Part shown: piece after piece, positions 1,112 to 42,535 of the stretch
Position numbering within the stretch: position 1 is the first letter of the stretch
Layout of the letters: every line of letters starts with the position of its first letter
Source: a virus
Direction: 5' to 3' (one strand)
DNA: 44,863 bases
Virus record (IMG/VR): IMGVR_UViG_3300033145_000591
Location: 1 to 44,863 of that record
Notes under the pieces: model-generated
The model's database searches: none
The model's input: the letters and a program-made list of their open reading frames with translations, nothing else
Told to the model about the DNA's origin: nothing
Translations under genes and position numbers: made by a program

Positions 1112-1273
1112 TCATTTACCCTTTGGTGATGGGTAACTCCACTCTTTCCCATCTTTAGCGGAAACAGGTATCTTCTCTGTTGGATTACCAGTTGATTTAT
1201 TACAGTCAACTGCCGCCCCACCATTATTCTCATTTGGTTGTGTTGGTTCCTGCGACCATTTTAACTCTGCCAT
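1112..1273 (-). CDS. Small hypothetical protein (53 aa)
   Basis: The ATG at 1273 is preceded by AAGGAG with 6-base spacing and overlaps the end of the amidotransferase gene by 13 bases, typical of translational coupling. The product begins MAELKWSQEPTQPNENNGG and is polar, Pro/Asn/Lys-rich and probably unstructured. It fills the space between the sugar cassette and the Pro/Arg-rich gene. Function unknown. Confidence 0.65.
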   Translation of the reverse strand: MAELKWSQEPTQPNENNGGAAVDCNKSTGNPTEKIPVSAKDGKEWSYPSPKGK

Positions 1274-2436
1274 ATTGGACTCCTTAGTTTATATTTCCCC
1301 ATTAATGTAGCTTCATCTTCAGAACATTCTAAAAAGATGTCCTCATTAACTATCTTATCACATATTTCAAAGAATGCTCGACTACTATAACCAGTTATTT
1401 TTAAGAAATCTTCCAATGCTTCTGGGTCTAGTTTATGGTCATGTGCCTTAACCCACCGTATTCCTTCATCTCTTTTAAGCCTCCCTTCTCTTATCCAACA
1501 ACTTGCCACATCCGTTACTCTTGCATGACCATACTTTGGATATTTAAGCCAAGGATGAACCAGATACCCCTTGCTATCTATCTGGTCATATTGCTCAATA
1601 TACCCCTGTCTTATCCATTCGTGTGTATCCTCAAGCGTTTTAAACCCCAATTCCCTAGCCTTTTTCATATTGTTATAACCACTCCAAGGAACATAGTAGG
1701 ATAGGTAGATGGGTGCTACCTTATGTTTGAACTGCCATGTGTTGTCGATAAGCCCAGAATTAGTCCTTTCCCACTTCCCGCTAGTTTTTGGAACACACGG
1801 TTGCATATCTTCCATTGTTATCCCATCGCCACACCAGTCCTTTAGCGGATATGGTTTAACCACATCATTGTTTACCTGTTCCAAAGCAGATGGTGTTTCC
1901 TCTGTAAACCCACCACCATATTCATAATTGATATTCTCGCCATACACTACAAGCGGGATATTCTTCTCGGTGGCCACCTGTAGAGGCCATGTGTATATAC
2001 ATCTGTCAAAGTACCATGTAGGGCTACCCAATCTCTCAAATGCCCTTCTTGTCATCTTCCTTGCAATCTCAGGGCTTATGATAAGAGATTCGATGTTACA
2101 CTGAAACGCTTTCAGCATATTAAAGAAGTTCTGTTTCCCTGTATCTGTCCAGCTATAGTTGCTGACATTAACCAAAAGAGGGTTCATCTGCATCTCCCTT
2201 TTCATCATATAAACCTGATACCAGCTATCTTTCCCGCCCGATACTGGAATAATGCAGTCATACCCACCATCATTCCTTCTGTGCTTGGTACATAGCTGTA
2301 CCAGTTCTTCATACCTCTTTGCCCAATCTATTTTCTTTTTCTTTTTAGCATTAAGGCAAGGATAACACACACCATTCTTATCAAACTTAATTCCTGGCCT
2401 TGTATCTGGCATTAAGCATTTTTTACAGTAGCGCAT
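1261..2436 (-). CDS. N-acetyl sugar amidotransferase (WbpG/PseA-like PP-loop enzyme)
   Basis: A 391-residue member of the PP-loop ATPase family that adenylates a sugar N-acetyl group and replaces it with an amidine using ammonia, as in PseA/PtmG/WbpG of nonulosonic-acid and B-band O-antigen pathways. Visible features: an N-terminal zinc-type pair CKKC (residues 4-7), a second CYPC (24-27), and the PP-loop SGGKDS at 66-71. Length matches the family. GGAGGAGTT precedes the ATG. It overlaps the NeuB gene by 25 bases, so it belongs to the same operon. Its likely substrate here is a legionaminic-acid-type sugar or its CMP form, giving an acetamidino derivative; that is inference from the neighbours. 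The ammonia-supplying glutaminase partner (HisH-like) is not in the window and would have to come from the host. Confidence 0.9.
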   Translation of the reverse strand: MRYCKKCLMPDTRPGIKFDKNGVCYPCLNAKKKKKIDWAKRYEELVQLCTKHRRNDGGYDCIIPVSGGKDSWYQVYMMKREMQMNPLLVNVSNYSWTDTGKQNFFNMLKAFQCNIESLIISPEIARKMTRRAFERLGSPTWYFDRCIYTWPLQVATEKNIPLVVYGENINYEYGGGFTEETPSALEQVNNDVVKPYPLKDWCGDGITMEDMQPCVPKTSGKWERTNSGLIDNTWQFKHKVAPIYLSYYVPWSGYNNMKKARELGFKTLEDTHEWIRQGYIEQYDQIDSKGYLVHPWLKYPKYGHARVTDVASCWIREGRLKRDEGIRWVKAHDHKLDPEALEDFLKITGYSSRAFFEICDKIVNEDIFLECSEDEATLMGKYKLRSPIWQS

Positions 2437-3089
2437 AACTCCTCCAATTCATCTGGCATGACTGATACGGGTTCATCAACACAACCTTTCTCTATCATAA
2501 AGTGTTTCTCTATTAATTCAGCACCATGAAATTTAACAGCATATATACAGTTCTGTATTCCTGTTGTATGGTCTGAATAACCCCATTTATAATCAGGGAA
2601 TAACTGTTTTCTCATATCAAGCATGAACAAATATGGATATTGCGCTGGATACTGGCATACTGTATGCATAAACGTAATCTCACACCCATCAAGCCATTTG
2701 ATAGCATTCTCTACATCGTAATTGCTGGCATTATCACTAACACTTATTATCACTGGTTTCTTTTTCTCTGCAACTGCTTCTAAAAACTTCTTATCAAACA
2801 ATCTTGGGCTTGCTATCTTGTAAGTATCAACCAGTGGTTCAAGAAAATCAATAGCACTATAGCTATGGGGGGTTGACATAAACTCAATACCAATAGCAAT
2901 ACACCGCTTTACCAGAAACGATGTATCAGCATAGGTAATATTAGGATATGGTAGTTCGTCCATTCCCTTGAATGTCTGAAACTTTACTATGTCTGCCCCT
3001 GCTTTGTGTGCAGCAGTAACCATATCAGTTGCCATAATATACTTACCACCATGATTTATGCCTGCCTCTGCTATGATTTGCATTCGCAT
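2412..3089 (-). CDS. neuB: NeuB/LegI-type nonulosonic acid synthase, short form
   Basis: This family condenses phosphoenolpyruvate with an N-acetylated hexose to form a nine-carbon sialic-type acid. Family motifs are all visible: IIAEAGINHGG at the N-terminus, VKFQTFK, FMSTPHSYSAIDFL, YKIAS, WGYSDHTTG and IEKHFM near the C-terminus. At 225 residues it is much shorter than the usual 330-350: the C-terminal antifreeze-like (SAF) domain is absent and the loops of the barrel are trimmed. In known NeuB dimers the SAF domain caps the partner's active site, so activity without it is uncertain. The start at 3089 (or 3083) follows AAGGTGG. It overlaps the 244-residue unknown gene upstream. Confidence 0.88.
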   Translation of the reverse strand: MRMQIIAEAGINHGGKYIMATDMVTAAHKAGADIVKFQTFKGMDELPYPNITYADTSFLVKRCIAIGIEFMSTPHSYSAIDFLEPLVDTYKIASPRLFDKKFLEAVAEKKKPVIISVSDNASNYDVENAIKWLDGCEITFMHTVCQYPAQYPYLFMLDMRKQLFPDYKWGYSDHTTGIQNCIYAVKFHGAELIEKHFMIEKGCVDEPVSVMPDELEELCATVKNA

Positions 3090-3805
3090 ACCACCTTTGC
3101 ATATAATTTGTTTATTGCCTGTCTGCTTCTAACGGCTGAGTAATAACGACTATTAGGATCATGGTCATAATAAATAAGAAATTCTGTATCTGGCTTTACA
3201 TTGGAATAGCCAACATACGATAGAAACATATCCTCTTTACCCCTAATAGTATCTAAAAATAAGACATCGCCTGCATCAACCTGATATAACTTTTCATTAA
3301 GCTCAACATTAATATAATTAATGGGATAGGTAATAACCCACCGCCCCCCCTTTCTCGAATACTCTGTTATTCCAATCATCTCCCTGCCATTAAGTACAGC
3401 ACTAATAACTTTTTCGGTCGTATCTAGCTCCTCATATTCAGCATCCACTTGCTTAATCTGTACCTTTTTATACAGTTTATCAGCCCCAATCTCCGTTATT
3501 GCTTCAAATCTTAATTCTGTTAGATCAATATCATCCCCAACGATTCTCACACATTTCATCTTGTCGCCATAAAATATTGTTGTAAAGGTATATGTTGGTT
3601 CAAAGAATATAGTTTGTTGATACACATCTTCGCCACCACAAGCGTGTTGAAGATACGCAGAATAGGTTAAATTCTTTCCATCATATAGATCACCCCTACA
3701 GATAATCTTCTGTCTGAATACATTTCTTTTTATCGTTTTAAGTTCTAGTGATCGATAGGCTACATAAGCAGCACAGAAGCTATTCGCAAAATCAATTAAT
3801 TTCAT
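3071..3805 (-). CDS. Unknown protein in the nonulosonic-acid operon (244 aa)
   Basis: This gene overlaps its upstream neighbour (dehydratase) by 14 bases and its downstream neighbour (NeuB) by 19, so it is co-translated with them. The protein begins MKLIDFANSFCAAYVAYR; its middle is rich in charged strands and it contains FLDTIRGKEDMFLSYVGYS. No signal peptide, membrane segment or catalytic motif I recognise is visible. The position suggests a role in making or transferring the sugar, for example as a transferase, tailoring enzyme or acceptor, but nothing in the sequence proves it. Confidence 0.8.
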   Translation of the reverse strand: MKLIDFANSFCAAYVAYRSLELKTIKRNVFRQKIICRGDLYDGKNLTYSAYLQHACGGEDVYQQTIFFEPTYTFTTIFYGDKMKCVRIVGDDIDLTELRFEAITEIGADKLYKKVQIKQVDAEYEELDTTEKVISAVLNGREMIGITEYSRKGGRWVITYPINYINVELNEKLYQVDAGDVLFLDTIRGKEDMFLSYVGYSNVKPDTEFLIYYDHDPNSRYYSAVRSRQAINKLYAKVVCECKS

Positions 3806-4724
3806 ATACCAACTCCTTCAATTCCTTCTCTGTTAGCCATCTTGTGCCATTTGAATCAGGCACATAAATGGAATCGCCTTGAACTGCTTTTGTAATCACA
3901 TAAAAATCATCTATTTCATAACAGTGTGGCATTTCTTCTGCCGATACCAGTATCTCGTAATCCCGCTCCCCTGCCCGCTTGCCGACAATCTTAACTTCCT
4001 GCCCGTCTTTCTTCATGGCACTAACTAAAGTCCCTAGCTTAAACGCTGGCATCTTTAAAATAAATGTTTCACTTCCCTTCATTTCACTTCCTGCTTTTAA
4101 AACCAAATCAACTGCCTGTGGGATAGTCATAATAAACCTTGTCATGTTCGGGTCAGTTACTTTAACCACATCATTATCAAACATCTCAAGCACAGAGCCA
4201 CTACTACCTAACACATTCCCAAACCTTACATTACAAAACTTAGTGGTATCCTTGTAATTCTCTGCGGTTACAATAAGTTTCTCCCCCATTGCTTTACTTG
4301 TACCAAGCACATTAATCGGATTAACAGCTTTATCAGTTGAGATGTTAACTACTCTATCAACATTATTTTCTCTTGCTGCTTCGATAACATTCATAGTGCC
4401 AATTACATTCGTCATAATAGCTTCAGACGGATTGCATTCGCATAAATGAACGTGCTTTAAGGCAGCAGCATGAAAGATAATATCTACGTTATTGAAGGCG
4501 AGAAGGAGGCGGGTTATATCTCTGACATCACCCTGTAAATACCTTACTAATGGTGATCCAAGAGATTCCTGAACACTATGGAGAGCATTCTCTCTGTTGT
4601 CTAGTATTCTTATCTGACGTGGCTTTAGAGATAGGACTTTTTTAACAATTCCCAACCCTATCGAGCCGCACCCGCCCGTTACTAGAATAGTCTTGTTTTG
4701 ATAGAAATTCTTTGACTGCACCAA
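3792..4724 (-). CDS. UDP-sugar 4,6-dehydratase (LegB/CapD-like, Polysacc_synt_2)
   Basis: An NAD(P)-dependent short-chain dehydrogenase that converts an activated GlcNAc to the 4-keto-6-deoxy sugar, the entry step to bacillosamine-derived sugars. Visible: Rossmann glycine motif TGGCGSIG (16-23), FHAAALKHV (84-92) and the catalytic stretch STDKAVNPINVLGTSK (129-144). The residue in the place of the usual Tyr is Leu. WbpM/CapD-type enzymes carry Met there and PseB-type carry Tyr, so this is closer to the WbpM/LegB side. At 310 residues it is compact and soluble, lacking the membrane domain of WbpM. The start is TTG 4724 (alternatively GTG 4721), 83 bases inside the aminotransferase gene. Confidence 0.88.
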   Translation of the reverse strand: MVQSKNFYQNKTILVTGGCGSIGLGIVKKVLSLKPRQIRILDNRENALHSVQESLGSPLVRYLQGDVRDITRLLLAFNNVDIIFHAAALKHVHLCECNPSEAIMTNVIGTMNVIEAARENNVDRVVNISTDKAVNPINVLGTSKAMGEKLIVTAENYKDTTKFCNVRFGNVLGSSGSVLEMFDNDVVKVTDPNMTRFIMTIPQAVDLVLKAGSEMKGSETFILKMPAFKLGTLVSAMKKDGQEVKIVGKRAGERDYEILVSAEEMPHCYEIDDFYVITKAVQGDSIYVPDSNGTRWLTEKELKELVYEIN

Positions 4725-5697
4725 TTACATAATCCTGTTCAATGGGGGTCATGGACGGATATATGGGTAGGGATAATATTCTTTTTGATATTAATGAACC
4801 ACACTCAAAATAAATCTTCGTTTCAATTCCTTTTTCTGTAAGAAATGTCTTTAACGCATCCCTTCTTGGGGTTGCGATAGTATATAGTTGATACACCGCA
4901 TAATCTCTCGACTGCGGGGTTGTTACTAAATTACCTAATTCCTCACTATACCTTTCTGCAATCATTCTTCTTAACGCAAGTATCTTATCAATTTTGTTTA
5001 GCTGAGCAATGCCAAGGGCAGCAGTTATTGAGGACATCCTGTAATTACTGCCAATAATATTCTTATCATTCCCATGATCTGACAGAAGTCTTGCAAGAGA
5101 AGCAATAGCTTGGCTATCTGTAACAATACACCCGCCTTCTCCTGTGGTTATGATTTTGTTCTGGCAAAAGCTGAACATGGCGGCTTCCCCAAACGTGCCT
5201 ACTTTTTTATCCCCGATAGCAGCACCGAAAGATTCGGCAGCATCTTCTAGCAGAATCAACCCCCGTTCACCTGCCAGTCGTTTTATCTTGTCCGTATCCC
5301 TTGCGGGATAGCCACCGTAATGAACAAGAATAATTGCCTCAGTGCCAGGCGTCATTACCCTTTCGACACTATCAGCATCCAACCCATACGTTTCACTTTC
5401 TGATTCAGCAAATACAGGGTTGCCGCCAGCCAGCCTTACAGCGTTATACGTTGCCTTGAATGTCAGTCTTGGCACTATAATATCACCAGTTAATCTGTTT
5501 GCGGTTATCAATGTTGAGAGCGCCGTTGTCCCTGAATTGAATAAGACACAGTATTTAGTGCCGATGTAACTTTTGATGTTATTTTCAAAATAACTAATTG
5601 CCCCACCCTTTGCCCATTGCAAACCCATTTTAATAACTTCTGAAATATTTTCTACATCTTCCTTATCATTAAATATCTTAAAGAGTGGTATGTTCAT
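4642..5697 (-). CDS. DegT/DnrJ/EryC1/StrS sugar aminotransferase (LegC/PseC-like)
   Basis: A PLP-dependent enzyme that aminates the 4-keto sugar. Visible: NSGTTAL (54-60, phosphate-binding), EDAAESFGA (151-159, PLP-ring Asp152) and SFCQNK (176-181) with the Schiff-base Lys181 followed by TTGEGG. Length 351 is normal. The last ~16 residues run past the normal family end and overlap the dehydratase gene by 83 bases, so the natural stop may have been lost. It is the first gene after the tRNA-like element in the direction of transcription. In the legionaminic pathway it would make the 4-amino sugar acetylated by the hexapeptide protein encoded at 5821-6126. Confidence 0.9.
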   Translation of the reverse strand: MNIPLFKIFNDKEDVENISEVIKMGLQWAKGGAISYFENNIKSYIGTKYCVLFNSGTTALSTLITANRLTGDIIVPRLTFKATYNAVRLAGGNPVFAESESETYGLDADSVERVMTPGTEAIILVHYGGYPARDTDKIKRLAGERGLILLEDAAESFGAAIGDKKVGTFGEAAMFSFCQNKIITTGEGGCIVTDSQAIASLARLLSDHGNDKNIIGSNYRMSSITAALGIAQLNKIDKILALRRMIAERYSEELGNLVTTPQSRDYAVYQLYTIATPRRDALKTFLTEKGIETKIYFECGSLISKRILSLPIYPSMTPIEQDYVIGAVKEFLSKQDYSSNGRVRLDRVGNC

Positions 5698-5711
5698 TTA
5701 ATCCTCACTGT

Positions 5712-5816
5712 TGGGCGGGGCAGGGTTCGAACCTACATTATGAGCCAGCTAAACTCAACTCAAGATATTGAGACATGCCTCGCACTTGGGTGTCTGCCAT
5801 TTTGCACCACCCGCCC
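5712..5816 (-). tRNA. tRNA-like element, anticodon arm not canonical (possible degenerate tRNA)
   Basis: On the minus strand a perfect 7-bp acceptor stem (GGGCGGG at 5816-5810 with CCCGCCC at 5719-5713), a discriminator A, and a canonical T arm (GTAGG TTCGAAC CCTGC, 5736-5720) are present. A D-arm-like segment follows the acceptor (GTG/CAC stem with a GG-containing loop, 5807-5790). The total length is 105 bases. The middle does not fold into a normal anticodon arm. One 5-bp/7-base arm (5757-5741) would give loop TTAGCTG, anticodon AGC, but leaves some 32 surplus bases before it; a second hairpin, CTCAA/TTGAG, lies in that surplus. It may be a decayed tRNA, an insertion-bearing tRNA or a tRNA-like RNA. 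No CCA is encoded. Confidence 0.5.
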
Positions 5817-5820
5817 ACAT

Positions 5821-6126
5821 TCATTTAACCACACTCCCAATAGGAATCTTTGCGTTTTCTTCTATTATGGCACCTGGTAATATCACAGTATGAGCACCAA
5901 TCTTTGCACCCTGTTTTATCTCCACACCAGCATATTTTCCTCTCTCTGTATCCTCACTATAGATAGCACAATGAGCACCAATCTGCACATTATCGTGTAT
6001 AATAACTCCATAACCAGCCTGGATATAGGTAAAACACCCAATATCCACGTTATTACCCAATATAAGATTCTCTGGATATGACACAACCCAATTCCATTTT
6101 GTTGGTTTAAGATGTTTTATCTTCAT
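5821..6126 (-). CDS. Small hexapeptide-repeat (left-handed beta-helix) acyltransferase, LegH-like
   Basis: This 101-residue protein shows hexapeptide periodicity (LGNNVDIG, IHDNVQIGAHCAIYS, IKQGAKIGAHTVILPGA, EENAKIPIGS), the mark of trimeric left-handed beta-helix acetyltransferases. Such enzymes N-acetylate the 4-amino sugar in the bacillosamine and legionaminic routes (PglD, LegH). It is about half the usual size: the N-terminal UDP-sugar-binding domain of PglD-type enzymes is missing, so the nucleotide-sugar specificity cannot be judged. It lies in the sugar cassette, overlapping its upstream neighbour by 20 bases. An O-acetyltransferase role is also possible. Confidence 0.82.
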   Translation of the reverse strand: MKIKHLKPTKWNWVVSYPENLILGNNVDIGCFTYIQAGYGVIIHDNVQIGAHCAIYSEDTERGKYAGVEIKQGAKIGAHTVILPGAIIEENAKIPIGSVVK

Positions 6127-6301
6127 CTAATTTACCGCCATATATCATAAAATCTGTAAGTTTCTTTAGTAGAAATGCTTTTACCGCTGGATTTTCAGGA
6201 TAAATCCACTTAGCTATCTTCACAAAAAGATTAGATAGTTTCCAGCGCAGTTGATACCACTTGGGTTTTTCTTTAGCTATCACATCATAAGTTTTAATCA
6301 T
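6107..6301 (-). CDS. Small unknown protein in the sugar cassette (64 aa)
   Basis: Begins MIKTYDVIAKEKPKWYQLRW; basic and aromatic-rich, with an amphipathic helix in the middle (NLFVKIAKWIYPENPAVKAF). It overlaps the epimerase gene upstream by 8 bases and the acyltransferase gene downstream by 20. No known family seen. The tight packing argues that it is translated. Confidence 0.6.
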   Translation of the reverse strand: MIKTYDVIAKEKPKWYQLRWKLSNLFVKIAKWIYPENPAVKAFLLKKLTDFMIYGGKLDEDKTS

Positions 6302-7094
6302 CTAACGTCTTTAATATCTTTATAATGTTATCGCTTGCATTAGGGATTGTCATGTCAGCATGTTTACTTTCCCTGTCTTTATTCCTCTCCCCAATCATTA
6401 TAATCTGCTCTGGTTTTAAAAGAAACCGTGCCTCGTAGAATGCAGATGATGAGTTGGTAAAAAATCTATTGCAGTTTTTGAGTAACCCAAGAAATTTTGG
6501 GCGTTCTTGATTTGCCAAGTTTGCATGAGGCCACCCATCCCAATAATAATCACCATTTGAATATATCCATAGATAATTATCACCATGAATTCTATTGTGA
6601 ATTTCCTGCAAATCATTAATTCTTTTATCAACTATAGAGGGTGAATTATATAATACTAGGGTATATTTGTATTTAGGCACTATGCTCTCATCAATCTCCC
6701 AATTATCCAGCATTACGTTTCCTACTACACGGGCATTCGGCTTTACTTCAACGGCGGCACAATAATCATAAACCCTACTCATCGCCTCATTATTAGTACA
6801 TAACTGCATCATGCTCATGTGGGTAATCGCCCATCTGTAAACCTCATCATGTGTGCCTTGTGATACCTCCCCTGCCCATAGGTGGATTATGGGTTTCCCC
6901 CCCCCCCACCATTCCAAACAATATTCAAAGGTTTCCTTCCGATCTCCACAAGCAATAATGTGAGTTGCATAAGTAGGCCCATAGTGTAGGTAGTCGGGAG
7001 CATACATTCCCTCTTTCATCAACTTCTCTTTCAGCAAACTTACCGCACCATCGCTTGCCCTGTTAAAGCTGGCTAAAAATATTTTCGGCATCAT
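6294..7094 (-). CDS. UDP-GlcNAc 2-epimerase-like (hydrolysing; NeuC/LegG family), short form
   Basis: Family landmarks: ACGDRKETF, HLWAGEVSQGTHDEVYRWAI (compare the GGExTxGxxDExxRxAI motif), VVGNVMLDN and TNSSSAFYEA. In nonulosonate routes this family hydrolyses the UDP-sugar and inverts C2 to give the free manno-configured substrate of NeuB. I chose ATG 7094 because AAGGA lies six bases upstream; an in-frame ATG at 7115 lacks such a site. The protein is 266 residues, about 100 shorter than typical NeuC/LegG, mostly at the N-terminus. The codons for Trp-Trp-Gly-Gly-Gly contain an unbroken run of 11 G (6897-6907), a likely slippage site. Confidence 0.82.
   Translation of the reverse strand: MMPKIFLASFNRASDGAVSLLKEKLMKEGMYAPDYLHYGPTYATHIIACGDRKETFEYCLEWWGGGKPIIHLWAGEVSQGTHDEVYRWAITHMSMMQLCTNNEAMSRVYDYCAAVEVKPNARVVGNVMLDNWEIDESIVPKYKYTLVLYNSPSIVDKRINDLQEIHNRIHGDNYLWIYSNGDYYWDGWPHANLANQERPKFLGLLKNCNRFFTNSSSAFYEARFLLKPEQIIMIGERNKDRESKHADMTIPNASDNIIKILKTLDD
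6897..6907 (-). repeat. Homopolymer tract G(11) inside the epimerase gene
   Basis: Eleven consecutive C on the plus strand (G on the coding strand) lie within the epimerase reading frame. The frame is intact at this length. Tracts this long change length by polymerase slippage in bacteria that use phase variation. Other runs noticed in the genome are 7-8 bases long. It is also a place where sequencing length errors occur. Confidence 0.85.
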
Positions 7095-7659
7095 TAAAAT
7101 CCTTTTCAGTATCAATGTCGATACTTCTCTCTGGTGGCATGATATACGCCCTGCTATAATTTATAGGGCTATCTCCTAACGTAGAAGATTCTATTATATA
7201 AATAGCACCGTTTCTTTTATATCTGAGATGTTCGGAACGACCCTGCTTTCTGTTATACTCGGTTATGGATACCAGATTCCTGTAATTGCCACTTAAAATA
7301 TTAAAACATTCTAAAACATCTTCTACGGTGCGAAGTGGGCTTGTTGGCTGTAATAATAACACGCTCGTGTCAGAGGTAATCTTGGCAAATTGCATGGCAT
7401 CTTTGATCACATCATATATACTCGCATCATCAGTAGCCAGGGAATCGGGTCTTTTCCTTAACGAAACACCGAATTGAGTGGCATAACTAAGAACATCATC
7501 CCAATCGCTTGATACAACAACATCCCTGTACCCATAATCTTTTAATCCGAGTGCCACCTTAATCGACCAGTAAATCAGGGGTTTGCCGCCAAATAACATC
7601 ATGTTTTTACCAGGCAACCTTTTACTATTCTTCCTTGCTGGGATTACTATTAGACTCAT
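7063..7659 (-). CDS. neuA: CMP-nonulosonic acid synthetase (NeuA/LegF-like cytidylyltransferase)
   Basis: Transfers CMP from CTP to a nonulosonic acid, giving the donor used by glycosyltransferases. The nucleotide-binding N-terminus IPARKNSKRLPGKN (6-19) matches the family IPARxGSKxxPxKN, followed by PLIYWSI, VSSDWDDVLSYA, LQPTSPLRT and the C-terminal DIDTEKDF. At 198 residues it is slightly shorter than the usual 220-235. It is the first sugar gene of the cassette in transcription order, one small gene after the large terminase, and overlaps the epimerase gene by 32 bases. Confidence 0.92.
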   Translation of the reverse strand: MSLIVIPARKNSKRLPGKNMMLFGGKPLIYWSIKVALGLKDYGYRDVVVSSDWDDVLSYATQFGVSLRKRPDSLATDDASIYDVIKDAMQFAKITSDTSVLLLQPTSPLRTVEDVLECFNILSGNYRNLVSITEYNRKQGRSEHLRYKRNGAIYIIESSTLGDSPINYSRAYIMPPERSIDIDTEKDFNDAENIFSQL

Positions 7660-7881: not shown

Positions 7882-9282
7882 CTACCTCATCCTCCCATGC
7901 CTTCTCAGATTAGCATCTCTTATCTTCTTTAACTTGTCTTTCATCTTAGGAAGCAACAACAATCTAGCAACACCGTGACTTACGGCATCACCGATATGAG
8001 AGTGAATATCCTTAACCGCACTATCCTTTAATATCTTGCCAGAACTATCTTTATGATAATGCCAGCCACCACGAAAACACCTAATCATATTCCCTAAATG
8101 CTTGCTTATCTGAACCATCGGCTCGCCATCAACCATTCTGTTAAACATCTCCTTTAAGCACTCCCTCCTTGCATCCCAGCCGCTCTCCCCTCTCTCAAAC
8201 GATGCACCTAACTCAGTATTTATCACATCTGCTGCCGTCTGGGACGAATCAGACTGCTCACGATTCATCATAGACGGGTCCCCGATATCCCTGTATTTCT
8301 TAATATCACGATAACGGGATGCAACAATATTCTTAACCCGTGTCTCAATCAACTGCCTGACCCCGATATTCTCACCACGAACACAATCAGTAAAATTAAA
8401 CCTTCCTCTCGGTGTTATCTGCATAAATACACAAGTAGGATTCAACCCACCATCCCAAAACCGATAAGTATCAAACATCTTATCAGGTTCTAATACAGAT
8501 TTTGTTACATGAAGTTTCTCGTTAAACTCTGGTGTTACCGCCTCCCCAACAGCTATAAAACTAAACTCACCATCAACATATCTACGATACAAATCAGGTC
8601 TGTCTTTATATGCAATCTTTACCTGCTCTCTGTTATACTGCTCTATATTATCATTCTCACCATAGGGGATGTTAATCGTTTCGGTATGAACATGAACCTT
8701 CTCTCCCTTAATCTCAACCCACATATCGATCGGGTCACTGATAAATTTCCTGTAAGTCCAGTGATCTTCATCTGCGGGATTCATAGTTACCTGCACACGA
8801 GGCGGTATATACCCTCTCCTGCCACACCTCGAGAACGCTATATCAAATACTTCTTCCCTCAACCCAGCATTCTCTTTAGCGGCAATAGGTGCTGGCTCTT
8901 CCAACCATACCCACTCTGGCTCATCTCCCTGTAACTTAGATAACGATGCCATATCATCAATCCCTATTAATCTTCCCTCAACATTCAAAAACTGCATCTT
9001 CTTCCCACCATCACTAAATATCGCTGCCCCGTTACTTGCCTTAATAAGAGATGGAACTGTCATTGCTTTAATATTCTCAAATGTATCTCTGATAATAAGA
9101 CCCTTTGAAATATGATCCCCCTTGTCCCTCATCTGAACCGCATGTCTCGCAATCCCCCACAACCCAGCAAAGGTTTTCCCCTCCCCTTGCGGGCCAATGA
9201 GAGCAATTATCGGGGCATCACTATTAACAAATTTAAGCTGTGCCTCAGATAATATAACCTTCTCAGGTGGTTTGTCAACCAA
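7882..9282 (-). CDS. terL: Terminase large subunit (packaging ATPase/nuclease)
   Basis: The motor that drives DNA into the procapsid and cuts it. Walker A GPQGEGKT is at residues 30-37, Walker B WVWLEEP at 124-130 with the catalytic Glu, an RNaseH-like first Asp in FWDGG (D277), and a later acidic DPSMMNREQSDS. The length, 466, fits podovirus-type large terminases. The start is TTG 9282 since an in-frame TAA lies immediately upstream. It follows small genes and the likely small terminase, and the portal lies beyond the sugar cassette, so the packaging block has been split by an insertion of about 6.8 kb. Confidence 0.95.
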   Translation of the reverse strand: MVDKPPEKVILSEAQLKFVNSDAPIIALIGPQGEGKTFAGLWGIARHAVQMRDKGDHISKGLIIRDTFENIKAMTVPSLIKASNGAAIFSDGGKKMQFLNVEGRLIGIDDMASLSKLQGDEPEWVWLEEPAPIAAKENAGLREEVFDIAFSRCGRRGYIPPRVQVTMNPADEDHWTYRKFISDPIDMWVEIKGEKVHVHTETINIPYGENDNIEQYNREQVKIAYKDRPDLYRRYVDGEFSFIAVGEAVTPEFNEKLHVTKSVLEPDKMFDTYRFWDGGLNPTCVFMQITPRGRFNFTDCVRGENIGVRQLIETRVKNIVASRYRDIKKYRDIGDPSMMNREQSDSSQTAADVINTELGASFERGESGWDARRECLKEMFNRMVDGEPMVQISKHLGNMIRCFRGGWHYHKDSSGKILKDSAVKDIHSHIGDAVSHGVARLLLLPKMKDKLKKIRDANLRRHGRMR

Positions 9283-36276: not shown

Positions 36277-36741
36277 TTATCCAATAAATAAGAAATACAA
36301 ATCGGCTATATAAATCGATTCAGGCGTTCCGAACTCTGCAACTTCAATAATAATCCCGTCTGCATGAAATGAAGTTATAGTCCCCTCATATCCATTCCCC
36401 GTAGTCTGCTCTATGTAAAAAAAAGCTGCGTTACTAACATAAGGAGTACCAACATATTTCTGATACATACACATTTCTACTAGGTCATCACCAATAACCC
36501 CCCACGATAATGTTCCCCCACTACCAAAGTTTGTATCAGCAATTACAAAAACAGCTTTTGGCAAAAATCCTACACCATTGACATCAATAGTACCTGCCGA
36601 ATTAAATGATGCACTCTTTACGGAAAACTTAAACGGGTTAGTAATAGTGCCATCCAAATATTCAAGGTTCTGCTCAATTCTGTCAATACTATCACCAACA
36701 TTCTCATCTATGTTAGGAGAAGAAGGAAACGGTAATGCCAT
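36277..36741 (-). CDS. Fibre/decoration paralog 1 (154 aa)
   Basis: Begins MALPFPSSPNIDENVGDSI with helical N-terminus, GVGFLPKAVFVIADT, and a C-terminal block (FHADGIIIEVAEFGTPES). First of three paralogs in transcription order, directly after the adaptor gene (1-base overlap). The most divergent end region suggests different targets. Confidence 0.65.
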   Translation of the reverse strand: MALPFPSSPNIDENVGDSIDRIEQNLEYLDGTITNPFKFSVKSASFNSAGTIDVNGVGFLPKAVFVIADTNFGSGGTLSWGVIGDDLVEMCMYQKYVGTPYVSNAAFFYIEQTTGNGYEGTITSFHADGIIIEVAEFGTPESIYIADLYFLFIG

Positions 36742-37436
36742 CAGTAAATATTCCTCCTTCCTTTATGTAACGAGGTATGCCTGTCAGAATAGGATTTCAT
36801 CCTTAAATCCCTGCCCCTGAATTTCTGCATCCTGTCCTTGTTCTTAGCAGCCATATAATACTCAACCACCTGCTCTTTATACCCCTCAACCATAGGCTTA
36901 TCCCTTAGATAGCGAGCACCTTTCAAACAAGCTGTTGCAATGATTAAAGACGGGACTTGAGTATCGATTTCTTCCTCATCTGCAGCAGCCGTTAAATCAA
37001 CAGGATAAGCGTAATAATCAAGGTAGAGTAGTTTGGCACCATCGGGGGTGGGAACGAGCCTGTAGTTAGCACCTTCTTTTACATAGTGCTTCGGGTCACC
37101 AGTACCAGTAAGACTATATATCTCCTGATACGCAAGCTCGTAATATTCATCTGTTGTGAGGGGTGGGAGTGGTTTTTCATCAGCACGGAAGAACAAACTC
37201 TTTTCTTCTATGAAGTCAGAAGGCCATGCATTAACAGCTATACTTGTACCCACGCTTGAACGGGCAGTTAATGTCCATTCAAACCTGTGTATGCCCTGTG
37301 AATCAGTTGCTAAAACAGGAAGCGTACCATCTGCTATCTCTGACCTTGCTTCATTAATCCACGTACCGATATTGACAGATAAGTCTGTTCTTAATAACTC
37401 ATCCTCTACCCGTCCCTGAAGGGTTAGATAATTCAT
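36741..37436 (-). CDS. Head-tail adaptor protein (231 aa)
   Basis: The N-terminal pattern MNYLTLQGRVEDELLRTDL followed by IGTWINEARSEI is the familiar start of podovirus-type adaptor proteins that dock under the portal. It continues with WPSDFIEEKSLFF, DEYYELAYQE and KHYVKEGANYRLVPTPDG, also typical of this group. Its position after capsid and decoration genes and before tail genes fits. It ends in a helical basic C-terminus. Confidence 0.75.
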   Translation of the reverse strand: MNYLTLQGRVEDELLRTDLSVNIGTWINEARSEIADGTLPVLATDSQGIHRFEWTLTARSSVGTSIAVNAWPSDFIEEKSLFFRADEKPLPPLTTDEYYELAYQEIYSLTGTGDPKHYVKEGANYRLVPTPDGAKLLYLDYYAYPVDLTAAADEEEIDTQVPSLIIATACLKGARYLRDKPMVEGYKEQVVEYYMAAKNKDRMQKFRGRDLRMKSYSDRHTSLHKGRRNIY

Positions 37437-37449
37437 TCATTTATCCCCC

Positions 37450-37857
37450 CTATCTTTCTCGGTAACGGACTACGAGGTAGTTCGCATTTGGTTTACACTC
37501 GCCACCTTCATTAAGAAGATAGGCAGTAAGGGTGTCTGTACTCCCAAGCGATGTTGATATTAAGGAAGCTGAGTTAATAAACGTTCCCGCATTATCACTC
37601 ATTTCCAGCGTTCCAGCGGCAAGGCTACCAATAATAGTTGAGGCAGTGGTGTAGAATTGGATTGTAGTTGAGATCGAACTTGACAAACCATCAGAATTAT
37701 TGGCATGAAGAAGCACCTGCTCTACAATAACTGGCCTTGACGGAGTCCACGACATTATCGGCTCGGTTGTAACTGTCGAAGATAACTGTATTGGTGCTAC
37801 AAATTCTCCCCTTTTGCCCTTATAAAATATCGGGCATTGATCACTAAAAGCAGTCAT
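37450..37857 (-). CDS. Capsid-adjacent Ser/Thr-rich protein, paralog B (135 aa)
   Basis: Tandem paralog of the gene at 37870-38277: both have QCPIFxxGxxGE near the N-terminus, MSWTP, LLHxNxSDGLS and FINSASLISTSLGSTDTLTA, and end VVRYRER. Same length. Probably a capsid decoration or head-completion protein. It is rich in Ser/Thr and stands next to the glycosyltransferase-like gene, which makes it a candidate acceptor. Confidence 0.65.
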   Translation of the reverse strand: MTAFSDQCPIFYKGKRGEFVAPIQLSSTVTTEPIMSWTPSRPVIVEQVLLHANNSDGLSSSISTTIQFYTTASTIIGSLAAGTLEMSDNAGTFINSASLISTSLGSTDTLTAYLLNEGGECKPNANYLVVRYRER

Positions 37858-37869
37858 TTAATTCTCCTC

Positions 37870-38277
37870 TTATCTTTCTCGATAGCGAACTACTAGAAAG
37901 TTCCCGTTTGGCTTACAAGCACCAGCCGCCTCAATAATCCATGCGGTAAGTGTATCTGTGCTTCCCAATGACGTTGATATTAGAGAAGCTGAATTAATGT
38001 AAGTCCCTTCTTCTCCCGCAAGTGCTGCCGCTACGTTTGAGATACTTCCTATGCAAGTTGATGCAGTAGTAAAGAATCTAATCGTAGTTGAGATTGCAAC
38101 TGACAAACCATCAGAGGCGTTGGAATGAAGAAGTATCTGTTCAACAATAACTTCTCTTTGTGGTGTCCACGACATCGCTGCGGTAGCAGTGTTGGTACAG
38201 GATAACTGAAAGGGCGCAATATATTCTCCCTTTACGCCCGTCTTAAATATCGGGCATTGCTTGCTAAAATCAGTCAT
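37870..38277 (-). CDS. Capsid-adjacent Ser/Thr-rich protein, paralog A (135 aa)
   Basis: Begins MTDFSKQCPIFKTGVKGEYI and ends FLVVRYRER, a close paralog of the next gene downstream. Lies directly downstream of the Maf-methyltransferase gene with no gap. Beta-rich and soluble. Function inferred from position between capsid and adaptor genes. Confidence 0.65.
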   Translation of the reverse strand: MTDFSKQCPIFKTGVKGEYIAPFQLSCTNTATAAMSWTPQREVIVEQILLHSNASDGLSVAISTTIRFFTTASTCIGSISNVAAALAGEEGTYINSASLISTSLGSTDTLTAWIIEAAGACKPNGNFLVVRYRER

Positions 38278-39780
38278 TTAATTCTCCTTACTAGTTGTGA
38301 TAAATGTTTTGCGAGTTGGGGTTTTAAGTATCTTCAACCCACGTCTGCGCAATTCTTTTCTCCACCATTGTGGCGGTCTGATTGTTAAATGGGGTTCAAG
38401 ACAACGTCTGATTTTCCAGTCGGCTGGCATACAATCAACATGAAAATGCTGGTACTTTGAAACTCTTTTCATCTCAGCTATCGAATCACTAATCTTGTCC
38501 AGTGGTATGTGTTCCAGTATGTCAGTCGCTACCAAATCAAATGCCTTATCTTCACATGGGATATTATGAGCAAATGCCATTGTGCATCTGTCAGCAACAC
38601 CATCCCACTTCTCTACTACACTATCTACTATGTCACATCCATAAGCATCATACCCATCCTCTACAAGTTCCTTTACCCCACTACCATTTCCACATCCAAC
38701 TTCAAGGATTGTCTTAATTTTTAAATCCTCAATATATTTTGTGGGAAATGTTCCTGCGTGGTCATATCCTTCTTCCCATGCAAGACTATACTTTGCAATT
38801 TCCGCTTGTTGCCAGTCCTTGCCCGCTTCCATTGCAGCCTTACAATGAGCAATCGCACTTTTCAAATAATACTGTTTAACGAATGGCAATAGCCCATCTT
38901 CTCGGCTTACTCCAAGTATTCCTCCTTCAGTTGCATTAATAAACGTGCCAGGGAACCTTGAAATTAAATCCTCAAGCCATACTTTAAAAATCCAATGGCC
39001 TGTTGTTGTTATAACCTCTTTTCCAAAAACATCTATCCATGGGACTCTCCGAATATCATCGTTTACCTCGTCATTACTATGTTTGCCATCAACATAATAT
39101 TTCCCATCTTTCTGCCAGGACAATTCATTCCCAACGAGAATAAACGTTCTGCATTGTAGTACCTCGGTTGCTATAAAAACAGCCTCATTAAAAGAATTCC
39201 CACATCCTGGAATTGGCCGAGACATTCCACATACTCTGCATACCTCTTTCTGTACGCTTTCATCTGGGCATCCCATAGGGATAAAAACAAGGTTGCCTTT
39301 CCAGTTTTCAATAGTACTACGATGGGAAAAGGTAGAACAGAGAAGATTAATACCCTCTCCGTTCACCTTTGATAAATCCCTTGTCCAAACTTCTTCATCG
39401 CAATCAACAGAAATAATGATGTCAGGTTTTACATCATTTTGCATGAGAAACTCTGCAACACTATTTACTGCGATTAAGATGAAGTTATCTCGGTACTCAC
39501 CTTCTATGTCTTTGAGATACTTAACATTCTTTTTCAAAGCTGGTGATGCACCAACAATGATACATACTTTATCACTGCCAGTACCCACCAGTTCATGAAA
39601 GTTGTTATGCTTCTCAATATCAGGCATATTCCTCTTGATAGTATCAGCCCAGGTTTTTTCTCCATGAGCAATAGAGTTCTTCGACAACTTCTCCAATGCC
39701 TCTCTTATTTTGGGGCGTACTGCCGTGTACCCCCCGCCATCTTTCCGTATCCGTTCGCTAATTTCGTCAACAATGCTCAT
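38278..39780 (-). CDS. Maf/DUF115-type nonulosonic acid transferase fused to a SAM methyltransferase (500 aa)
   Basis: Residues 70-290 match DUF115 (motility-associated factor, MptE-like): KVCIIVGASPALKKN (71-85), FILIAVNSVAEFLMQNDVKP then DIIISVD (100-126), CGNSFNEAVFIATEVL (193-208) and FINATEGGILG (280-290), a marker of the Maf family. Maf enzymes transfer CMP-pseudaminic or CMP-legionaminic acid onto Ser/Thr of flagellin. Residues 355-500 are a Methyltransf_11-type domain with ILEVGCGNGSG (358-368) and FDLVATDILEHIPL. It is the gene directly downstream of the major capsid gene and could glycosylate and methylate virion proteins. Confidence 0.82.
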   Translation of the reverse strand: MSIVDEISERIRKDGGGYTAVRPKIREALEKLSKNSIAHGEKTWADTIKRNMPDIEKHNNFHELVGTGSDKVCIIVGASPALKKNVKYLKDIEGEYRDNFILIAVNSVAEFLMQNDVKPDIIISVDCDEEVWTRDLSKVNGEGINLLCSTFSHRSTIENWKGNLVFIPMGCPDESVQKEVCRVCGMSRPIPGCGNSFNEAVFIATEVLQCRTFILVGNELSWQKDGKYYVDGKHSNDEVNDDIRRVPWIDVFGKEVITTTGHWIFKVWLEDLISRFPGTFINATEGGILGVSREDGLLPFVKQYYLKSAIAHCKAAMEAGKDWQQAEIAKYSLAWEEGYDHAGTFPTKYIEDLKIKTILEVGCGNGSGVKELVEDGYDAYGCDIVDSVVEKWDGVADRCTMAFAHNIPCEDKAFDLVATDILEHIPLDKISDSIAEMKRVSKYQHFHVDCMPADWKIRRCLEPHLTIRPPQWWRKELRRRGLKILKTPTRKTFITTSKEN

Positions 39781-39791
39781 AGATTAATTAC

Positions 39792-41051
39792 CTAGAAACT
39801 GAGTTTTTCAAGATAACCATGTAACTTATCAGGGTTACGAAGCTCAATGGTATATTGACCAGAGAGCTGATACCCCTGGTTTCTACCAGTTTTTGCCATC
39901 TTCTCCAAATGCCAAGCATCACCCTTTAAAGAACATAGGTGTACCGCATTTTTGTCCAAAATAAGGAGAATACTACTCGGGCAAAACCTATCTACAACTA
40001 CAGGCAGCTCAAAGCCCAAATCGGTCTTTACCTTATCTGCATAAGTGCCGATTACCAGTTCTCCAGAACCCTTCCTAACTCGCTGTTCCTCAAGCAAGGC
40101 AATTACCCTTGCCTGTTTCGGGCCCGTGATGATAACAGGATTACTGCCATCACCAAGCCCCCCCTGGTTATAAATCTTTTCACAAAGATCGTTGATTCTC
40201 CCAAGGGTGAGAGTACCCCAACTAGCATCTGTTATGGTATCAGTGTTTGCACCAGCAACCGTCAACAGAGGGTGTTTGATATTTGACAATATGCCTGACA
40301 TTGTCCTAGTCGCAATGTCTGGAGTACCAGCATTAGCAGCAGCGTATGGAATACCCATCAGGGCAGCCATGTTCAACTCCCGCTTCATCTCAAGCGTTCT
40401 CAGCTTAATCTGATGCTTTTTCTCATCTTTAATCGCATAGAGGTCAATATGTTCCCTCGTTTCCGTTATCTGAATACCTCTCTCAAACACCTGAGTATAA
40501 TTCTTCCTTCTCGTTCTTGCCTGAGAAATATCATCAGAATAAGTTGCCGTATCTCCCTTCGGATTCCCAACTATAAAGTATTTACAACCTGTTACAGAAA
40601 GACCTGCATTACCAAGCGTTGCTGTTCCAGTTCCCATCGAAGTGGAAAGAGTTGAATTTACTCCATACCATGCCAGGGAAATCGTGCTGCTTAGCGTCAT
40701 ATCTGGGACTCTCCATGTATAGCCAAATTTCTCATCTCGCAGAAGTGACCCAGTTTTTATCACAAGACTAAGCTCTGCTGTTGTGCTATGCGAATCTTGA
40801 TAAAGCACAGCGCAATCGCAACTTCCATGCCCTACGCTTAATGTCCCAGATATAAACGCTGGGTGAAGAACATCTTCAAAATAAAAGTGTTCTATGTTAC
40901 TTACTGGTGCGCCCATAGCAATCTGTCCAAGCGTGGCGGTATCCTTTAAAAGAATAGCCGCCAAAACGTCTGAGACGTCTAGCTTGTCCATCTGACCAGT
41001 GGCACCATACAATCCTTCTGCAGCCATAAAACCAGCTGATGTTAAAGTCAT
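39792..41051 (-). CDS. Major capsid protein (DUF5309-like, HK97 fold) (419 aa)
   Basis: Follows the scaffold gene by 15 bases. The middle NYTQVFERGIQITETREHID with KKHQIKLRTLEMKRELNMAA resembles the DUF5309 major head proteins, where NxTQxxxxxxxVSxT precedes a long E-loop-side helix. The 419-residue length is normal. The N-terminus MTLTSAGFMAAEGLYGATGQ is cut by no visible protease site. The region 100-160 is an unusual Ser/Thr/Gly-rich insertion (SLAWYGVNSTLSTSMGTGTA), exposed perhaps on the outside. Confidence 0.82.
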   Translation of the reverse strand: MTLTSAGFMAAEGLYGATGQMDKLDVSDVLAAILLKDTATLGQIAMGAPVSNIEHFYFEDVLHPAFISGTLSVGHGSCDCAVLYQDSHSTTAELSLVIKTGSLLRDEKFGYTWRVPDMTLSSTISLAWYGVNSTLSTSMGTGTATLGNAGLSVTGCKYFIVGNPKGDTATYSDDISQARTRRKNYTQVFERGIQITETREHIDLYAIKDEKKHQIKLRTLEMKRELNMAALMGIPYAAANAGTPDIATRTMSGILSNIKHPLLTVAGANTDTITDASWGTLTLGRINDLCEKIYNQGGLGDGSNPVIITGPKQARVIALLEEQRVRKGSGELVIGTYADKVKTDLGFELPVVVDRFCPSSILLILDKNAVHLCSLKGDAWHLEKMAKTGRNQGYQLSGQYTIELRNPDKLHGYLEKLSF

Positions 41052-41066
41052 TATCTTATCCTTTCA

Positions 41067-41849
41067 TTACGGGTTAAGTTTCAATTCCAGAAGCGCATCT
41101 ATATCCCCATCAGCCATAGCTTTATCATACTTTTTCTGCTTATCATCTGCCATCGGTACTGCACTTCCCGTATTGGGAATATAAGCATCTTTATTCTTTT
41201 GCTGTTCGGCAAGCAATTCCTTTCTGATTTGCTCCTCCGTCTTTTGGGCTGGTGGTTTGCTCCCATCAGCAGCAGGCATTTCATCTCCAATCAGGGTGTT
41301 CATAATATTATATTGTTTCTTTGCGGCTTCCTTCATCTGCTCCTGCCCCATCACAAATGCTTTTTTCAAACTGGCTTTCGTTCCAGTATTAAGATACTGG
41401 TTCTGCCGTAGCACTTGTTGGGTATAGGGAGCAGTCATATCCCACAACTCTGGGTTTTCTGCTCGCAATTCCGCAATATCATCGTCCCGTTTCATCTTTC
41501 CCATTTCATCTCTTGCCAACTGCCGTGACTTCATTTCGGGGTTATCAAAGAAGTCTGTCCCTTTATCAACTTGCTGTTGGAGGGTTTGAGCTAATTGAGC
41601 ACGTTGTCCTGATTCGGTTTGTAACGCCTGTTTCAACTCCGACATCTCTTGCCCCTGCTGTGTTATCTTTTGCTGACCTTCTTTCAACGATTTTGCCACT
41701 TCTTCGTATGATTTAAAGCCAGACTTTTCAAGGAAGTTATCAGCATTAACGCTGGTTTCCTGTGCTTCAGGAGAAGGGATCGCTTCCTGCTCTTGCCCTG
41801 CTGGGGGAGCTTCTGCGGGTTGTCCTTCTGTTGGTATGTTTTCTGTCAT
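41067..41849 (-). CDS. Scaffolding protein (260 aa)
   Basis: Acidic, Pro/Gln-rich N-terminus (MTENIPTEGQPAEAPPAGQE), a long helical middle rich in Gln/Glu/Lys (SLKEGQQKITQQGQEMSELK), and a charged C-terminus, the classic composition of a scaffold that fills the procapsid and leaves it. Upstream of the capsid gene with only a short gap. C-terminal helix likely binds the capsid protein. Confidence 0.8.
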   Translation of the reverse strand: MTENIPTEGQPAEAPPAGQEQEAIPSPEAQETSVNADNFLEKSGFKSYEEVAKSLKEGQQKITQQGQEMSELKQALQTESGQRAQLAQTLQQQVDKGTDFFDNPEMKSRQLARDEMGKMKRDDDIAELRAENPELWDMTAPYTQQVLRQNQYLNTGTKASLKKAFVMGQEQMKEAAKKQYNIMNTLIGDEMPAADGSKPPAQKTEEQIRKELLAEQQKNKDAYIPNTGSAVPMADDKQKKYDKAMADGDIDALLELKLNP

Positions 41850-41879
41850 GACGTTCTCCTTATCCAGACCATCTGGGGG

Positions 41880-42248
41880 CTACTGGTCTTTTGGTTGTTT
41901 GTTGTATTCATCTACTCTTTTCTGTGCTGCTACACCGTTTGCTATTTTCATATCAATATGGTCTTTTAGTTTGTTAATACCGCTTAACTCCTTCATCTTC
42001 ACGTCAAACCCATCTTTATTATTTTCTGCTGTATATGATGCAAACATCTGGTTGAAATCCCATGTCTTATTAATCCATTCAAGAACCATAATCCAACCAG
42101 TACACTTCGACATTGCCTCTATTGCCTTGCCAGTTTTAATAGTTTCTTCTTCTCCCCTTAACCTTCCCTGCATCTGTTGCTTGATTATCAGATTGTTTTC
42201 CTTTGCTGCCAGATGCCTTATTGTTGCCCCGTCTTTTTTAAGTGGCAT
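41880..42248 (-). CDS. Helical protein between terminator and scaffold (122 aa)
   Basis: Start chosen at ATG 42248 (MPLKKDGATIRHLAAKE) because AAAGGA lies before it; upstream starts at 42260 and 42296 are closer to or inside the terminator hairpin. Contains LIIKQQMQGRLRGEEE and EWINKTWDFNQMFASY; helical, probably a minor head protein or assembly factor. Unknown family. Confidence 0.6.
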   Translation of the reverse strand: MPLKKDGATIRHLAAKENNLIIKQQMQGRLRGEEETIKTGKAIEAMSKCTGWIMVLEWINKTWDFNQMFASYTAENNKDGFDVKMKELSGINKLKDHIDMKIANGVAAQKRVDEYNKQPKDQ

Positions 42249-42263
42249 AAATCCTTTCATCAG

Positions 42264-42308
42264 ACCAAAAAGAAAGCTCGCCCAACGCCGTGACACGCCA
42301 GCGAGCTT
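42264..42308 (-). terminator. Intrinsic terminator-like hairpin upstream of the scaffold block
   Basis: On the minus strand AAGCTCGC (42308-42301) and GCGAGCTT (42281-42274) form a perfect 8-bp stem around a 19-base loop, followed by TTTCTTTTT. Placed inside the late operon, it may set the ratio of portal-side to capsid-side messages or be read through. No promoter was found just downstream. Confidence 0.65.
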
Positions 42309-42346
42309 ATGAGAAAAGAGGGCTTTTCCTTCCTTTTCTTCTTGGT

Positions 42347-42535
42347 CTATCTATATGTTAGATTAATTCTACTGGCATAACCAGTTGCCTGCTCCTCTCT
42401 TAATGCTATTAATTGTGCCTGCCTTTGTGCATGATTAGTATTAGCCCTTTGATTACCAATCCTGCCCGTTTCGGCATAACCCTTATATATATCGTTTGCC
42501 CTTGTCTTTACTTTAGGACATGGCTTGCACGTCAT
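42347..42535 (-). CDS. Small hypothetical protein (62 aa)
   Basis: ATG 42535 follows AAGG and overlaps the end of the radical SAM gene by 23 bases. MTCKPCPKVKTRANDIYKGY leads into Gln/Ala-rich helix (QRQAQLIALREEQAT). A CxxC at residues 3-6 is alone. Unknown function; last gene before the terminator. Confidence 0.55.
   Translation of the reverse strand: MTCKPCPKVKTRANDIYKGYAETGRIGNQRANTNHAQRQAQLIALREEQATGYASRINLTYR

Follow-up and report, generated by a model that had tools for sequence, protein, structure and literature searches.

Homologs of a nonulosonate pathway and a Maf-type transferase in the head and packaging block of a phage: candidates for virion glycosylation

Why would a phage encode, in the midst of its packaging genes, homologs of the enzymes that build a cytidine monophosphate (CMP)-activated sialic-acid-like sugar, and onto what might such a sugar be transferred? 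The question is raised by IMG/VR record IMGVR_UViG_3300033145_000591 (the window: all 44,863 nucleotides of it), in which a cassette at positions 1261-7659, transcribed from 7659 toward 1261, encodes homologs of the six enzymes of the legionaminic-type route and an amidotransferase. We lean toward the view that the phage synthesizes a CMP-nonulosonate with its own enzymes and uses it to glycosylate its virion; sequence and a predicted fold suggest that a Maf-type enzyme encoded next to the capsid gene probably attaches the sugar to a virus protein. More tentatively, and at somewhat less than even chances, we propose that this reflects a widespread, previously undescribed virus module combining trimmed nonulosonate enzymes, Maf-type capsid transfer, and a tailoring step by a B12-binding radical S-adenosylmethionine (SAM) enzyme. 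If true, phages have the means to cover their particles with sialic-acid-like sugars from their own enzymes, which would explain the presence of NeuB in hundreds of viral contigs, provide a function for viral proteins now called 'MptE-like diphosphokinase', and open the poorly known glycosylation of phage capsids to tests by genomics and mass spectrometry; the trimmed enzymes would further illustrate how far a nonulosonate pathway can be pared down.

The cassette between the terminase and portal genes

A preliminary description of this DNA had placed homologs of the six pathway enzymes and an amidotransferase here, and staked the idea on profile searches placing at least four of the steps; Pfam and NCBIfam searches assign a family to each of the seven, with sequence matches that lie far beyond chance. 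All genes discussed below are on the minus strand, which carries nearly the entire head and packaging block, and the cassette lies within this block, as had been described, between the terminase and portal genes. Read 5' to 3', its first half comprises a CMP-nonulosonate synthetase (NeuA/LegF/PseF-like, 198 aa, 7063-7659; PF02348 [CTP_transf_3], 3.4e-19; TIGR03584, 2.8e-26), a trimmed hydrolyzing uridine diphosphate (UDP)-sugar 2-epimerase (NeuC/LegG-like, 265 aa with its ATG at 7091, 6294-7091; PF02350, 7.6e-15, and also NeuC_NnaA, 2e-19), a 64-aa frame that overlaps both of its neighbors (6107-6301; no Pfam, NCBIfam, or PHROGs family), a left-handed β-helix (hexapeptide) N-acetyltransferase (101 aa, 5821-6126; PF00132, 1.1e-9; NeuD/PglB TIGR03570, 5e-8), and a tRNA-like element (5712-5816). 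These are followed by a DegT-type UDP-4-keto sugar aminotransferase (LegC/PseC-like, 351 aa, 4642-5697; PF01041, 8.8e-83), a UDP-N-acetylglucosamine (UDP-GlcNAc) 4,6-dehydratase (Polysacc_synt_2; WbjB/CapE/PseB/SpsM-like, 310 aa, 3792-4724; PF02719, 4.5e-87), a 244-aa protein of unknown family that overlaps the dehydratase and NeuB frames (3071-3805; no match in Pfam, NCBIfam, or PHROGs), a SAF-less nonulosonate synthase (NeuB/LegI-like, about 224 aa, 2412-3083; PF03102, 5.8e-42), and an N-acetyl sugar amidotransferase (WbuX/PseA-type, 391 aa, 1261-2436; TIGR03573, 326 bits against a cut-off of 203). The amidotransferase displays the PP-loop motif SGGKDS, with SGGKD and four Cys residues invariant in the alignment.

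All frames of the cassette are open across 6.4 kb. Its characterization as an overlapping operon holds for most adjoining genes, which overlap by 8-83 nt, with the exception of a 123-nt gap (5698-5820) that holds the tRNA-like element, and with the addition of the two family-less frames inside it. The element matches Rfam RF00005 at 28.8 bits (gathering threshold 29; E = 3e-4); ARAGORN, which found no tRNA, missed it. The G+C content of the cassette is 36-41%, against 38-47% for the structural genes, and the cassette is therefore no sharp compositional island.

The succession of reaction types is the same as in the bacterial CMP-legionaminic acid pathways (SpsM/C/D/G/E/F of Bacillus subtilis and LegB-C-H-G-I-F of Campylobacter and Legionella), and the WbjB/CapE-like dehydratase and UDP-linked precursors are specifically reminiscent of the Sps route (PMC7439481). 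Unlike these pathways, the phage version is situated in a late operon, features trimmed enzymes, including a NeuB without the SAF domain, and adds the amidotransferase and the 244-aa protein. It also differs from the epaA/epaB and O-acetyltransferase genes of Acinetobacter phages, which act on host-made nonulosonates (PMC12053666, PMC6586298), in that the present phage encodes enzymes for de novo synthesis. The literature searched holds no report of a whole phage nonulosonate route or of a Maf-type capsid transferase. The earlier suggestion that such whole routes are rare in phages needs qualifying: a NeuB-alignment scan of IMG/VR recovered at least 511 NeuB relatives among the 600 candidate stretches listed, and a near-complete cassette is found in at least three other viral contigs. 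Of five other viral contigs that conserve trimmed forms of the enzymes, two (L007 and L088) display a NeuB-NeuC-hexapeptide-DegT order that runs up to the portal gene. In L007, NeuA and NeuB are fused in one 419-aa protein (5825-7084), and a further sibling, L086 (10807-12194), combines the cassette with a PIG-L deacetylase and a formyltransferase, a gene content that suggests an N-formylated variant of the sugar.

Trimmed enzymes and the candidate sugar

The bacterial counterparts of four enzymes, namely the CMP-synthetase, the epimerase, the acetyltransferase, and NeuB, are longer than the phage proteins; full-size proteins of Moritella measure 229 aa (CMP-synthetase), 379 aa (epimerase), and 347 aa (NeuB). 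The source of the latter, match H1, was considered as a phage and rejected as such, being a bacterial contig. Assembly errors were likewise rejected as the cause of the trimming, because the enzymes of divergent viral contigs (L007, L008/L009, L086, and L088) are similarly short; the trimmed forms are common to divergent viruses at 33-55% identity, with their motifs conserved. Among viral NeuB frames, 53 of 91 fall below 305 aa, and the best PDB match of the phage NeuB is 6ncs (290 aa). The trimmed epimerase has five relatives in the IMG/VR scan, and the genomes of 84,980 prokaryote species, scanned twice for a bacterial donor of the trimmed NeuC, yielded no relative, with the sensitivity limited by the use of peptide patterns. 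The longest homopolymer of the genome, a stretch of 11 consecutive G residues in the coding strand (6897-6907), lies in the epimerase gene and could reflect either phase variation or a sequencing effect.

The NeuB barrel scores 144 bits with PF03102 against a cut-off of 22 and preserves most metal-site and phosphoenolpyruvate (PEP)-site motifs; the N-terminal motif of the CMP-synthetase, PAR-x-x-SKR-x-P-x-KN, is invariant in four sibling viruses; and the aminotransferase conserves the pyridoxal phosphate-binding Lys region (QNKIITTGEGG) and the EDAAE motif. The epimerase matches the Epimerase_2 profile at 55 bits (cut-off 30.6), and among its catalytic positions, which give a mixed picture, the acidic residues and Arg are kept (GDRKETF, HLWAGE, and HDEVYRWAIT); the roles of these NeuB and epimerase residues are established for their families. 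An AlphaFold model of the epimerase (predicted template modeling score [pTM] 0.74), built like that of the Maf fusion discussed below on a shallow alignment (the two alignments comprised 8 and 5 sequences), aligns over 254 of 265 residues with NeuC 5zlr (Z 21.4, root-mean-square deviation [rmsd] 2.8); as modeled, the GT-B fold is whole despite the small size.

As to the sugar, the epimerase profile scores 74.5 bits with the UDP-diacetylbacillosamine 2-epimerase structures 5xvs/5zlr, against 45.4 bits with human GNE, and the pseudaminic route has no 2-epimerase. For these reasons a legionaminic-type route is favored, as the preliminary description had argued from the presence of the hydrolyzing epimerase, and from sequence comparisons we assign a legionaminic-type product with moderate confidence. 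The dehydratase is closest in the PDB to WbjB 4j2o (219 bits), followed by PseB (210 bits) and PglF (147 bits), whereas sibling L007 encodes a clear PglF-type dehydratase (226 bits). Within its triad, T-x9-M/Y-x3-K with TDK, the TDK and the Lys are present and Leu occupies the M/Y position. That this Leu, in place of Tyr, marks a legionaminic route was proposed at the outset; we rejected it as a diagnostic because the closest solved enzyme, annotated as of the C5-epimerizing WbjB type, has Met there, and the residues responsible for C5 inversion are not known according to a review (PMC8987622). B. subtilis SpsM resembles CapE/WbjB/PseB and yet serves legionaminic acid synthesis, and it can be fully replaced by pglF and not by pseB (PMC7439481); a WbjB-like dehydratase is thus compatible with legionaminic acid, given that SpsM is of the same structural type. 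None of the equivalog cut-offs is reached (LegB TIGR04180, 53 against 475 bits; LegC TIGR04181, 186 against 420; PseB, 263 against 408; PseC, 193 against 424; NeuB likewise falls below), and we therefore state the sugar only as legionaminic-type.

A Maf-type domain beside the capsid gene and its viral relatives

The interval first described, 1261-7659, holds for the cassette and not for the extent of the system, which reaches a gene starting 11 bp after the capsid gene and coding for a Maf-type domain fused to a C-terminal methyltransferase (38278-39780; PF01973, Methyltransf_11), and probably also a B12-binding radical SAM enzyme encoded between the portal and scaffold genes (42513-43859; PF04055, PF02310), a probable sugar-modifying partner. 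The PF01973 (MptE-like/Maf) domain scores 84.8 bits against a cut-off of 34.6 (7.9e-24) and contains an INATEGGI motif; residues 49-288 match the flagellin modification protein PseD (NCBIfam NF050051, 2.6e-15), with the cut-off of the full-length PseD/Maf model unreached (56 against 670 bits, covering model positions 204-448 of 640). The best fold for the predicted structure of the fusion (pTM 0.75) is Maf 5mu5 (Z 21.2 over 247 residues, rmsd 3.3), followed by MptE (Z 16.6) and sialyltransferases (Z of about 10). BFVD names viral proteins of the Maf fold (loci L147-L189) 'MptE-like diphosphokinase', and related genes adjoin capsid and NeuB genes.

Bacterial Maf proteins use CMP-nonulosonates directly and tolerate non-cognate donors and some chimeric acceptors (PMC11339370). 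The phage protein resembles the Maf/PseD flagellin glycosyltransferases in its PF01973 domain, fold, and PseD match, and would be expected to use a CMP-nonulosonate donor; it differs from them in adjoining a capsid gene, in having the C-terminal methyltransferase without the bacterial three-domain build, and in that its acceptor is presumably a virion protein. The candidate acceptors are the SU10-type major capsid protein (39792-41051; PF17236, 5.9e-50; phrog_1328, 1.8e-42) and, alternatively, two paralogous, Ser/Thr-rich 135-aa proteins (37450-38277; 65% identical) encoded directly after the Maf gene, the first of which has no match in the PHROG scan. Mycobacteriophage capsid proteins carry glycans added via phage-encoded transferases (Freeman et al. 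2023, cited in PMC12619734, PMC11256854); the capsid glycans are a point of likeness, and the portions of these sources available to us describe no nonulosonate cassette or Maf-type enzyme.

A scan of IMG/VR with the Maf alignment, which includes the INATEGGI motif, recovered 52 viral loci, and we compared the records with 34 random viral contigs drawn with a 15-base neutral pattern. NeuB is present in 18 of 48 Maf-positive records against 0 of 34 controls (Fisher 1.7e-5), a CMP-synthetase-family gene in 16 of 48 against 0 of 34 (Fisher 9e-5), and, with records of at least 20 kb only, NeuB in 16 of 25 against 0 of 17 (p=1.4e-5), the surveyed contigs being related to each other such that these p-values overstate independence. 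In the reverse direction, PF01973 at the strict cut-off is found in 12 of 80 NeuB-positive records against 1 of 34 (p=0.10, not significant alone), and at E<1e-3 in 25 of 80 against 1 of 34 (p=5e-4). A capsid homolog lies within two upstream frames at 26 of the 45 Maf loci having two such frames, and the PHROG scan names at least 15 upstream neighbors of Maf genes as major head protein, with no major head protein among the PHROG families listed for the distal frames of the same loci. A block encoding a protease, the capsid protein, two Maf proteins, NeuA, and a radical SAM enzyme recurs in five contigs (L152, L157, L163, L164, and L165) and is followed by NeuB in all of them except within the stretch examined of L165. 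The layout of the present genome, with the sugar genes between terminase and portal and Maf shortly after the capsid gene, recurs in L075/G070; methyltransferase-Maf fusions with the reverse domain order occur in the NeuB-positive phages L074, L085, and G070; and five contigs (L011, L041, L068, L073, and L081) have homologs of the radical-SAM protein near NeuA or NeuB, with none at the control loci.

A candidate pathway, its alternatives, and the genomic setting

We propose that UDP-GlcNAc would be dehydrated by the 3792-4724 product, and that the resulting 4-keto sugar would be aminated by the 4642-5697 product and N-acetylated by the 5821-6126 product to give UDP-diacetylbacillosamine. This might then be hydrolyzed and 2-epimerized by the 6294-7091 product, condensed with PEP by NeuB (2412-3083), and CMP-activated by the 7063-7659 product, while the amidotransferase (1261-2436) could turn an acetamido into an acetamidino group, and further changes to the sugar may come from the B12 radical SAM enzyme and the fused methyltransferase. 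In the cytoplasm, the Maf-type domain would then move the sugar from CMP directly onto Ser/Thr residues of a virion protein; the likeliest acceptors are the capsid protein or its Ser/Thr-rich 135-aa neighbors, and shielding, stability, or surface charge are possible benefits to the phage. Gene identities and order, the folds predicted for the epimerase and the Maf fusion, and the genomic associations form the observed basis of this proposal, from which activity, sugar isomer, acceptor, and benefit are inferred.

Several observations weigh against this proposal. NeuB ends after its TIM barrel without the C-terminal SAF (antifreeze-like) domain, which supplies an active-site Arg in characterized NeuB enzymes, and the Glu of its K-I-G-S-G-E motif is missing (KIASPR here, and absent in the siblings too). 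The idea that the set is functional has the whole modeled fold and the retained acidic residues and Arg of the epimerase on its side, but the His of the YHP/QHP motif of full-size epimerases is Asn here and in all trimmed forms; and the aminotransferase lacks a C-terminal loop that its siblings keep. The Maf-type domain has its likeness to MptE; the survey controls form a small set with many short contigs; and much of the capsid adjacency stems from two capsid lineages. Furthermore, the closest sibling cassettes (L007, L008, L009, L086, L088, and L013, of which L007, L013, and L088 are short contigs) have no PF01973 match; the cassette and the Maf half are therefore not obligatorily linked, and, judging by their gene content, some sibling phages must use other transferases. 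Glycosyltransferase-like genes follow the capsid gene in L007 and L088.

The losses in NeuB, the epimerase, and the aminotransferase, together with the G11 run, are what a decaying or partly inactive host-acquired cassette with degraded, short enzymes would show; we consider this improbable because every frame is open, divergent viruses share the trimmed forms with conserved motifs, and the epimerase model keeps its whole fold. Slightly less probable still is that the MptE-like gene encodes a pterin diphosphokinase or an unrelated enzyme that lies near the capsid gene incidentally: MptE gives the family its name in both Pfam and BFVD and is the second-best fold, but Maf is clearly the best one, sialyltransferases come next, and the PseD match and the statistical link to NeuB and the CMP-synthetase point the same way. 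It is also rather unlikely that a functional cassette serves to alter the surface of the infected host (capsule, lipopolysaccharide, or flagellin, the last glycosylated by the Maf-type enzyme), for instance as a barrier to superinfection or to shift the charge of the host. Bacterial Maf proteins do modify flagellin (PMC11339370) and phage genes altering host-surface nonulosonates are known (PMC12053666, PMC6586298); against this, the genes lie in the late head operon beside those for terminase, portal, and capsid, in several lineages the viral Maf genes come after those for the capsid, and no flippase, polymerase, or export gene is seen among the window proteins scanned. A virion decorated instead with another nonulosonate (pseudaminic, acinetaminic, or a new isomer) or another ulosonic acid is a somewhat unlikely variant, to which the affinity of the dehydratase to C5-epimerizing types rather than PglF, the PglF-type enzyme of sibling L007, and the unreached equivalog cut-offs all lend weight; the hydrolyzing 2-epimerase, missing from pseudaminic routes, and the precedent of SpsM (PMC7439481) favor the legionaminic-type sugar.

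An exact 114-bp repeat joins the ends of the record (bases 1-114 are identical to 44750-44863), and the genome is therefore complete, at 44,749 bp, and terminally redundant or circular. A near-identity search of phage records with this genome gave no match, and single-protein scans of IMG/VR with NeuB, the terminase, WbuX, and the capsid protein returned no near relative except one terminase, 23% identical; the useful relatives were recovered by the alignment-based scans. The terminase large subunit (7882-9282; PF04466, phrog_979) forms the upstream border of the cassette. In the rest of the head block, a probable scaffold gene (41067-41849) lies upstream of the capsid gene, and an SU10-type adaptor (36741-37436) follows the 135-aa pair. 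Between the radical-SAM and scaffold genes is a 663-nt gap (41850-42512) with overlapping frames on both strands. The portal gene, identified by its PHROG match, runs from 842 across the genome joint to 43856; its frame is broken at 44350-44452, with both halves matching the same portal PHROG, a break that may reflect either an indel introduced in sequencing or a genuine frameshift.

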